From an uncultured Candidatus Melainabacteria bacterium (GTDB taxonomy: Bacteria; Cyanobacteriota; Vampirovibrionia; Gastranaerophilales; Gastranaerophilaceae), in the NCBI GenBank assembly GCA_950096985.1, contig CATNBA010000001.1, positions 1 through 64,000 on the forward strand: a stretch of DNA of 64,000 bases, given 5' to 3'. Position 1 is the stretch's first letter, and the number at the start of each line of letters is the position of its first letter. The position numbers and the translations under genes were made by a program. Under the pieces are notes generated by a model. It was given only the letters and a program-made list of their open reading frames with translations. It had not been told where the DNA came from and made no database searches. Shown here one piece after another: positions 919-11,784 of the stretch.

Positions 919-947
919 TTGACAAATCTAACATAATCGTAAATAAT
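919..947 (+). promoter_or_regulatory. Promoter of antisense RNA 1
   Basis: A perfect -35 TTGACA (919-924), a 17-base spacer and AATAAT (942-947) predict a start near 954. The -10 context TCGTAAATAAT is identical to that of the antisense promoter at 11598-11626. Confidence 0.7.
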
Positions 948-953
948 ATGAAT

Positions 954-1052
954 AAGGGCGGAGCAAGTTCCAGCTTGCCCCATTAAAAGCCCCATTTTAG
1001 TTGAAACATTTAAGCGCTATTATTATCAATAAGATAAGCAGTAGCGCTTTTT
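954..1052 (+). ncRNA. Candidate antisense antitoxin RNA 1 (about 100 nt)
   Basis: The RNA begins about seven bases after a strong promoter. It opens with a stem-loop (GCAAG/CTTGC, 964-978) and ends in a terminator: AAGCGCTA (1012-1019) pairs with TAGCGCTT (1042-1049) and runs into TTTTT. It is fully antisense to the 3' two thirds and 3' UTR of the hydrophobic peptide gene on the minus strand (997-1071). The layout (5' stem-loop, linker, terminator inside the peptide ORF) matches antisense RNA 2 at 11512-11591. The proposed role is base pairing with the peptide mRNA as a type I antitoxin. Promoter, terminator and overlap are seen; function is inferred. Confidence 0.6.
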
Positions 1053-1071
1053 CAGTTATCCTGAATTCCAA
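997..1071 (-). CDS. Candidate type I toxin: 24-residue hydrophobic peptide
   Basis: A small ORF runs from a TTG at 1071 to TAA at 997. The peptide has a charged head (MEFRITEK), a hydrophobic core at residues 9-20 (ALLLILLIIIAL), then K-C-F-N. A strong ribosome-binding sequence AGAAAGGGGGTG lies six bases before the TTG; an in-frame GTG at 1080 would add three residues. The transcript should start near 1153 with GAGGGTAAG and carry an 80-base leader. Leader start, ribosome site and peptide design all match the second module at 11459. The 3' two thirds of the ORF is overlapped by a convergent antisense RNA. No homology search was possible, so toxicity is inferred from architecture only. Confidence 0.55.
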   Translation of the reverse strand: MEFRITEKALLLILLIIIALKCFN

Positions 1072-1159
1072 CTTTATCACCCCCTTTCTCTTACGGTTTA
1101 ACAAATTTTAAGTTCGTGCCGCTGAGAAATGAAAGATGATTGGGCTTACCCTCATAAAT

Positions 1160-1188
1160 ATAATACATCACGTTCGAGAATAAGTCAA
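1160..1188 (-). promoter_or_regulatory. Promoter of hydrophobic peptide 1
   Basis: On the minus strand TTGACT (1188-1183), a 17-base spacer and TATTAT (1165-1160) predict a start near 1153, giving an mRNA that begins GAGGGTAAG. Confidence 0.6.
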
Positions 1189-11360: not shown

Positions 11361-11458
11361 TATTTTGCAGGGTAAGAGAACTCTCATTCTAAAAAGAAAC
11401 CGACCGCCAATTTTATTAGTGACCTCGGGATTGGTTTCCGACTAGAAAGGGGGCTTAT

Positions 11459-11539
11459 ATGGATAAATTCAATATTAGTTTATTACTAATCTTTATGATT
11501 TTATTTGTATTAAAAAATGGCTCTCACCATATAAGGTAA
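11459..11539 (+). CDS. Candidate type I toxin: 26-residue hydrophobic peptide
   Basis: An ATG at 11459 with AGAAAGGGGG five bases upstream opens a 26-codon frame. The peptide begins MDKFN, has a hydrophobic core at residues 6-18 (ISLLLIFMILFVL) and ends with a basic, His-containing tail (KNGSHHIR). A 92-base structured leader precedes it: GAAACC/GGTTTC and CCAAT/ATTGG can pair in alternative ways. The 3' end is overlapped by a convergent antisense RNA. Size, single membrane helix, strong ribosome site and antisense overlap match type I toxins of the TxpA/Fst kind by architecture. It is a paralogue of the peptide at 997-1071. Toxicity is inferred. Confidence 0.65.
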   Translation: MDKFNISLLLIFMILFVLKNGSHHIR

Positions 11540-11591
11540 GAACCATTTGACCTCTAAGGGAGTTCGGTACTTTCTCAAGGTACCACCCTGT
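11512..11591 (-). ncRNA. Candidate antisense antitoxin RNA 2 (about 80 nt)
   Basis: Starting near 11591 from a strong minus-strand promoter, this RNA has a 5' stem-loop (GGTACC/GTACC). It ends in a 12-base-pair terminator hairpin (11517-11546) followed by six U. The hairpin is strand-specific: two positions are G-U pairs on this strand but C-A mismatches on the toxin strand, so selection seems to have acted on the antisense RNA. It covers the last nine or so codons of the 26-residue peptide and its 3' UTR. The AbrB-type gene just upstream on the same strand would read into it, so both transcripts may supply antitoxin. Confidence 0.65.
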
Positions 11592-11597
11592 GTTTAC

Positions 11598-11626
11598 ATT
11601 ATTTACGATTTTTGTATTTTTGTCAA
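11598..11626 (-). promoter_or_regulatory. Promoter of antisense RNA 2
   Basis: The minus strand reads TTGACA (11626-11621), a 17-base spacer, then AATAAT (11603-11598). The -35 begins two bases after the stop codon of the AbrB-type gene. Confidence 0.7.
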
Positions 11627-11628
11627 GA

Positions 11629-11784
11629 CTATTTATCGTTTATTTTTTCAATCTTGATTACATTATTTTCAATTTTTATTGACACTTTATCTTTGACGGG
11701 ACTGATAGACAAACCCTCTAAAATTGCTTTAGGAATAATAATTCCCCAGCTATTTCCGATTGCTGTAAATTTTTTCTTTATCAT
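11629..11784 (-). CDS. AbrB/MazE-type swapped-hairpin DNA-binding protein
   Basis: This 51-residue gene is easily missed. The N-terminus MIKKKFTAIGNSWGIIIPKAIL is the classic SpoVT/AbrB/MazE motif (basic strand, IGNSWG, IPK). It is followed by ISPVKDKVSIKIENNVIKIEKI. Such proteins dimerise as DNA-binding antitoxins or transition-state regulators. The start at 11784 lies inside the first of five 12-bp boxes, the likely autoregulatory operator. Downstream on the same strand is antisense RNA 2. No MazF/PemK-like toxin is adjacent, so it is either a solitary regulator or pairs with the 31-residue peptide or the type I module. A plus-strand ORF over the same DNA is a shadow. Confidence 0.85.
   Translation of the reverse strand: MIKKKFTAIGNSWGIIIPKAILEGLSISPVKDKVSIKIENNVIKIEKINDK

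Follow-up and report, generated by a model that had tools for sequence, protein, structure and literature searches.

We analysed a stretch of 64,000 nucleotides (nt) from the genome of an uncultured Gastranaerophilaceae bacterium (GenBank assembly GCA_950096985.1, contig CATNBA010000001.1, positions 1 to 64,000; hereafter the window) and describe a module at positions 897-1196 that is probably a chromosomal type I toxin-antitoxin system, a reading to which we give a probability of roughly 0.83. A small protein gene and an antisense RNA opposite to it, each with its own promoter, are what defines such a system, and both are predicted here. Comparison among relatives shows both promoters, the coding frame, the hairpins including the one that hides the ribosome-binding site, and a potential for pairing between the two ends of the mRNA; that the peptide is toxic we infer. 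The module most likely belongs to a previously undescribed family of many copies which, as far as searched, is limited to the Gastranaerophilales of the gut.

Organisation of the module

A preliminary description of this DNA had held that the 358-base gap (881-1238) behind two Xre regulator genes is occupied by a plus-strand RNA with a consensus promoter and terminator, and by an opposite promoter driving an mRNA for a 24-codon peptide with a 12-residue hydrophobic core, whose codons contain the terminator hairpin of the antisense RNA. At the sequence level, each of these parts was found where it had been placed. The features are as follows, with SD denoting the Shine-Dalgarno sequence, ORF the open reading frame and UTR the untranslated region.

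897-1196, both strands: module of two opposed transcription units, antisense RNA on plus and mRNA on minus
919-947, plus: promoter of the antisense RNA, TTGACA-17-AATAAT, spacer ending in AATCGTA
954-1052, plus: antisense RNA, putative antitoxin, about 99 nt, ends predicted from promoter and terminator
956-992, plus: 5' hairpin domain of the antisense RNA, GGGC GG.GCAAG UUCCAG CUUGC.CCC..GCCC
1013-1052, plus: intrinsic terminator of the antisense RNA, within toxin codons 9-20
1188-1160, minus: promoter of the toxin mRNA, TTGACT-17-TATTAT
950-1152, minus: putative toxin mRNA, about 200 nt, both ends predicted, 5' end near 1152 reading AGGGUAAGCCC
1142-1152, minus: 5' arm of the long-distance interaction, at the mRNA 5' end
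1076-1140, minus: leader stem-loop sequestering the SD, in which the anti-SD AUCAUCUUUC pairs with GAAAGGGGGUGAU, plus an upper stem
1080-1088, minus: SD GAAAGGGGG, conserved in the alignment of relatives
1071-997, minus: ORF of the putative toxin, MEFRITEKALLLILLIIIALKCFN, 24 codons with a TTG start
955-992, minus: 3' arms of the long-distance interaction, GGGCUU (987-992) pairing with AAGCCC and CCCU (955-958) with AGGG

The 3' end of the mRNA is placed just past the 3' UTR hairpin and possibly lies about 15-20 nt further than 950. The antisense RNA is complementary to the 3' UTR and, within the ORF, to the final two thirds. It ends near 1052, and the start codon (1071-1069) and the SD, which the minus strand carries ahead of the ORF as AGAAAGGGGGTG, lie outside the overlap, so that the initiation region is left uncovered.

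Coding potential of the peptide frame

The predicted 24-residue product is a short, hydrophobic peptide with one putative membrane-spanning stretch. Its core ALLLILLIIIAL comprises the 12 residues 9-20, has a mean Kyte-Doolittle value of 3.7 and is conserved in relatives. We aligned the codons of 23 ORFs of type C, the subfamily of the window module, and took as coding score the excess substitution score averaged over changed codon pairs. It is +2.44 in the proposed frame, while the two remaining forward frames give -1.22 and +0.29, with 132 and 28 stop codons across the 23 relatives compared to none in the proposed frame. For codons 2-10, nearly all of which lie beyond the antisense RNA, the corresponding values are +2.00 in frame versus +0.76 and -0.49. 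One reverse frame reaches +1.42 with zero stops, which is below the score of the proposed frame. The start column holds ATG, GTG or TTG in all 19 aligned relatives; an alternative GTG at 1080 would give 27 codons, and the conserved start-codon column is that of the TTG at 1071. The charged residues ITEK ahead of the helix are conserved in the type C alignment as well. A coding signal confined in this way to one frame argues for a real gene. The preliminary description had named loss of the 24-codon frame together with absence of RNA signal as the outcome that would overturn it; in the part accessible to computation, the frame is conserved in the 23 relatives and the RNA structures covary.

Peptides of all subfamilies (n=8) gave zero matches to Pfam at E<=10, in a search where the HMMER filters are weak for queries of 24 residues, and against NCBIfam a single chance match to TatA (E 0.22).

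Structure of the two RNAs

The leader of the mRNA folds with a z-score of -3.2 in the window and a mean of -2.45 in 43 relatives, 31 of which are below -2, and in all 43 the SD is predicted to be at least half paired. Covariation is present in the upper stem of the leader hairpin. RNAalifold on the MAFFT alignment missed this hairpin (gaps), and the structure of a relative (L073) was used for the counts instead. With the full structure, 57 cells are changed on both sides versus 24.8 in shuffles, none of 500 shuffles being as high, and sliding the pairing partners lowers pairing from 92% to 36-55%.

Beyond the leader, the first 14 nt of the mRNA pair with its 3' region at a mean predicted probability of 0.60, compared to 0.15 with a shuffled leader; pairing is above the shuffled-leader value in 48 of 50 modules. 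We then compared cognate 5'-3' duplexes with non-cognate ones, excluding the invariant first four bases and using a permutation that ignores sequence relatedness. Cognate duplexes are the stronger ones in type A (-12.0 versus -7.7 kcal/mol, 14/14, permutation P 5e-5) and in type B (-8.7 versus -7.1 kcal/mol, 14/18, permutation P 4e-4). The words AGGG and AAGCCC of the mRNA 5' end recur as arms of the antisense RNA hairpin, which indicates that one target serves both the mRNA 5' end and the antisense RNA; the latter and the closed mRNA would therefore compete for it.

The terminator hairpin of the antisense RNA (AGCGCTA...TAGCGCT, 1013-1048, followed by TTTTT to 1052) spans exactly the codons of the core. 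Its 22-nt loop exceeds the loop limit of the automatic terminator scanner, and the hairpin is thus absent from the scanner output. It was recovered by RNAalifold on the MAFFT alignment, with compensatory changes in 5 of 10 pairs. The apical stem of the 5' hairpin varies among paralogues and may be the recognition domain. All 28 distinct 3' UTR/antisense 5' hairpins taken from relatives are foldable (mean z -3.7), with stems such as GGGGCAAG, GAGAGGA, GUGCGGA, GAGCAG and GAGGUUGU, and most have a loop of the form CNGNAA. Compensatory changes are seen in this hairpin too, as in the leader and the terminator. At the gathering score, Rfam gave 0 matches in the window and 18 relatives; at E<=5 it gave SIB_RNA alone, below threshold (14.1 bits, gathering score 56, E 3.5).

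Promoters

The antisense promoter has 11 of 12 consensus matches and is the best promoter in the first 3 kb of the window. Among the 44 modules found with the covariance model R1 (see below), the promoter at this place has a mean of 10.7/12 and reaches at least 9 in 42, whereas the mRNA promoter has a mean of 9.4/12 and reaches at least 9 in 30; shuffled sequences reach at least 9/12 in 6% and 8%, respectively. The antisense promoter thus appears to be both stronger and better conserved than the toxin promoter.

The pattern TTGACA-N13..15-GTAAATAAT occurs at two places in the window, here and at 11598-11626, versus 0 in 100 shuffles. Extended by AGGG at the start site, it occurs at 47 places in 19 of 33 genomes of the same genus, with 0 for a reversed control pattern. 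The plus-strand promoter pattern has ten places in the window's own genome, six of which are such modules, the rest preceding prepilin-like or unrelated genes. As a family marker on its own the pattern was rejected as unspecific, and the loci where it precedes prepilin-like or other genes (L005, L007, L008, L009, L019) were excluded. In L005, L008 and L009, all in the window's own genome, the motif precedes prepilin-like genes (GFTLAEVLITLGIIG...), and in L019 (G018) a short frame. Tracts of C9-C10 or G10 are close to the start codon in L005, L008 and L019. Phase variation is suggested by L005 and L008, where the tract as assembled has a length that throws the pilin frame downstream of it out of register.

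Subfamilies and distribution

On the strands opposite to the pattern matches we found hydrophobic ORFs of 21-29 codons, nearly all of them with an SD at the same position. They fall into three subfamilies, each with such an ORF:

Type A: peptide MDKFNISLLLIFMILFVLKNGSY.., represented by the module at 11.4 kb
Type B: peptides of the MVDKIIMLLLAFSIAVIALNLKP and MNRELIKKALAILELLIKLIIVLI kinds
Type C: peptide xFSITEKALxLILLIIxALK, the window module at 997-1071

In three loci (L004, L049, L052) the peptide is of type C and the antisense domain of type B.

The search with a covariance model that the preliminary description had proposed was carried out with R1, built from 19 type C mRNAs including the window copy, whose own score is therefore high by construction. 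R1 matches were found in 90 of 289 genomes of the class (three families, one order) and in 67 of 292 genomes sampled from the phylum, all within the order Gastranaerophilales and none outside it in this sample. The type B model R2 has matches in 59 of 194 genomes of the phylum, all in the window's family. The pattern of the type C antisense hairpin occurs at 22 places in 16 of 239 genomes of the family, spread over four genera, compared to 0 for the control pattern. Among 85,000 prokaryote genomes, the exact type C pattern gave 14 matches, all in metagenome-assembled genomes titled Gastranaerophilales, Melainabacteria or unnamed bacterium. Collections of plasmid and phage records contained zero module matches; in viral contigs the type C pattern is absent, and 4 matches to the promoter pattern there came without an R1 match.

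When R1, R2 and R3 matches are merged, the window's own 1.65-Mb genome holds about 15 loci of the three types, two or three of them broken. Modules may also stand in arrays at a spacing of about 300 bp, such as four in G058. The second module of the window is a distant paralogue of type A:

11369-11592, plus: mRNA with MDKFNISLLLIFMILFVLKNGSHHIR (11459-11539)
11626-11598, minus: antisense promoter of the type A paralogue, with the terminator in the C-terminal codons

It scores 207.7 bits with R3, whose alignment includes this copy. The module near the start of the window had been called a second copy; a further module does exist at 11.4 kb, and it is one of about 15. The idea that the two are recent duplicates was rejected, since R1 gives only 12.2 bits (E 0.84) at the 11.4-kb copy. 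Just upstream of the type A antisense promoter, a frame of 51 amino acids (aa) at 11629-11784 (minus) reads as a candidate AbrB-type antitoxin-like protein (MIKKKFTAIGNSWGIIIPKAILEGLSIS...).

Neighbourhood, gain and loss

The gap that contains the module is bounded as follows, HTH denoting helix-turn-helix.

366-608, plus: Xre-type HTH gene 1, 80 aa, PF12844/PF01381, neighbour outside the module
620-880, plus: Xre-type HTH gene 2, 86 aa, PF01381 (E 2.9e-15), neighbour outside the module
881-1238: intergenic gap, 358 bases, from Xre-type HTH gene 2 to the 138-aa gene
1239-1655, minus: 138-aa gene, other flank of the gap

A strong bidirectional terminator AAAAAAGTCCCTTTCGGGACTTTTTT at 1215-1240 sets the module apart from the 138-aa gene. 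The Pfam matches confirm the two Xre neighbours of the preliminary description, and HTH_3 domains of Xre type lie within 500 bp of at least 13 of 52 modules (five genomes) versus 1.2 expected, where the count is from the domain matches listed and the expectation assumes even gene placement. The association would seem to be a real trend. Adjoining Xre/HTH_3 genes often read toward the antisense promoter.

An empty site was found in G031 (L167). The second Xre gene (619-897, 87% identical) and the 138-aa gene (1190-2498, 80%) are retained, 18 bp separate the aligned flanking blocks and the module is wholly absent; the unit of gain or loss is therefore roughly 898-1189. No target duplication was seen in this comparison of empty and filled sites.

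In three copies (L010, L012, L070) the toxin side is damaged and the antisense promoter kept. In L010 (G000:C35:10807-10932) the end of an efflux-pump-like gene replaces the toxin leader; this copy could be either a terminator put to new use or an orphan antitoxin. Another copy, L129 (G000:C18:16610-16793), is a broken near-copy of the window module with an almost identical leader and a replaced toxin core. No clearly intact toxin without an antisense promoter was seen, and only the R1 set is unbiased in this respect.

Interpretation

If the module is a type I system, it may work as follows. The weaker promoter would give the mRNA of about 200 nt for a peptide of 24 residues that could cross the membrane a single time, and the anti-SD stem-loop would hide the ribosome site as soon as the leader is made. 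When the 3' end is finished, the mRNA would be closed by pairing of its 5' end AGGGUAAGCCC to GGGCUU and CCCU in the 3' UTR, and could then serve as a stable silent store. Trimming at the 3' end would expose the mRNA both to ribosomes and to the antisense RNA. The latter, made as an RNA of about 100 nt from the stronger opposite promoter and ending inside the ORF, would anneal to the 3' UTR and the final two thirds of the ORF, and duplex formation would destroy the mRNA, probably with RNase III. Loss of the short-lived antisense RNA would release the peptide, which may be toxic through membrane insertion.

Several results weigh against this account. In type C the long-distance pairs are invariant, which leaves zero covariation there, and the cognate test gives P 0.91. 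Release of the SD by 3' truncation alone was not supported, as folding keeps the SD paired in the 3'-truncated mRNA; folding alone therefore does not account for the onset of translation. In addition, the mRNA has an imperfect terminator, and a recognisable mRNA promoter is missing from some modules. The asymmetry of damage is not fully clean either: types A and B were found by way of the antisense promoter, and the broken L129 has also lost it. Moreover, the comparative data speak for coding and regulation, not for toxicity.

This last point leads to the alternative that survives best, a small membrane peptide that acts as an ordinary regulator, harmless at natural levels and checked by a cis-antisense RNA, with which the conserved charged ITEK before the helix would also agree as a feature of a partner-binding peptide. 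A harmful product fits better with about 15 modules per genome that carry several unrelated peptide sequences in one architecture, with presence or absence at a site and arrays, with the double masking of translation and with loss of the toxin side in damaged copies, and we consider the regulatory peptide unlikely. That the locus is a noncoding RNA pair, a bidirectional terminator or a repeat element with an accidental peptide frame would agree with the many copies and the strong RNA structure on both strands; it is made very improbable by frame-specific conservation with 0 stops in 23 relatives, by the conserved SD and start codon, and by the fact that all three subfamilies keep a hydrophobic ORF of 21-29 codons and an SD in the same position. 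Least probable of all is a mobile or selfish element in which the antisense RNA serves chiefly to regulate copy number or movement, not a toxin, as variable position, multiple copies, arrays and the empty site in G031 might suggest, since a 300-bp unit is too small for a transposase or recombinase gene, the G031 comparison showed no target duplication, and neither the plasmid and phage collections nor, for the type C pattern, the viral contigs had a match.

Within the type I reading, a further proposal is tentative and, in our estimate, a little short of an even chance: a separate superfamily specific to the order, with a logic of its own, in which the mRNA 5' end copies the stem arms of the antitoxin, so that neither ribosome nor antitoxin has access to the closed mRNA, the terminator sits in the helix codons, and modules exchange the 5' hairpin but keep the toxin. 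If this were true, toxin and antitoxin could not evolve apart, as the antitoxin terminator lies in the codons of the membrane helix, and exchange of the antitoxin 5' hairpin with a kept toxin would allow many mutually independent copies in one small genome.

The family is widespread in Gastranaerophilales and absent from the protein and RNA family libraries searched, which supports the view that the seemingly narrow range of type I systems reflects the difficulty of finding them. The co-evolution of closed toxin mRNAs and antisense RNAs could be studied on its many natural sequence variants, as could the way in which a single stretch of DNA would hold the codons of a membrane helix and, on the opposite strand, a terminator.

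Comparison with known systems

According to a 2025 paper, which adds a candidate in Microcystis, type I systems had previously been found only in Proteobacteria, Firmicutes and Tenericutes (PMC12390103). In our literature search, with most subscription journals outside its scope, type I systems and Melainabacteria, or antisense RNA and Gastranaerophilales, were never joined; judged by title, none of the publications mentioning both Gastranaerophilales and toxin-antitoxin is on such a system.

AapA toxins are about 22-30 aa long, similar to the module peptide. In AapA/IsoA the defining geometry is an antisense RNA that overlaps the translation initiation region; here, in contrast, it extends from the 3' UTR across the final two thirds of the ORF and stops short of the SD, its terminator is within the ORF, and the predicted SD stays in a local hairpin after 3' truncation. 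Likenesses are the several chromosomal copies with module-specific antisense RNAs, and anti-SD hairpins during transcription followed by a 5'-3' closure that makes the full-length mRNA inert (PMC6733600). In the AapA3 mRNA, two transient SD-hiding hairpins precede the long-distance closure (PMC6733600), which is comparable but not identical to the module here. Closure of the full-length mRNA in the manner of AapA is predicted here from folding and the cognate test; lineage and peptides are different.

Hok is a toxin of about 50 aa with a mok leader frame. Hok/Sok likewise has an antisense RNA, and its mRNA, which forms a metastable hairpin, is closed between the 5' and 3' ends and activated from the 3' side (PMC6733600), whereas the module peptides have no Pfam or NCBIfam match and the antisense geometry differs. 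Ibs/Sib of E. coli resembles the module in very short hydrophobic peptides, repeated chromosomal copies and an antisense RNA of similar size, but Sib covers the SD and the entire ORF (PMC4147584), and the Rfam SIB_RNA score here is no match. MsoT1/MsoA1 of Microcystis is the only type I system so far claimed in the phylum Cyanobacteria (PMC12390103); compared by description only, its putative toxins differ in being 39-81 aa long and were found de novo in one photosynthetic species, and MsoT1 has two predicted transmembrane helices.

BsrG/SR4 and TxpA/RatA of Bacillus share with the module an overlap between the antisense RNA and the 3' portion of the toxin mRNA (here 954-1052 versus about 950-1152). 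Those systems act by RNase III decay, and SR4 also alters the structure at the ribosome site (PMC4147584). They differ in a longer toxin (TxpA 59 aa), in the lack of any sequence match and in a convergent 3'-end overlap of about 75-120 nt, in which RatA spares the coding region. The module, which matches no known family in the sequence tests run, would thus be hok/aapA-like in the predicted closure of its mRNA and bsrG/SR4-like in its overlap geometry.
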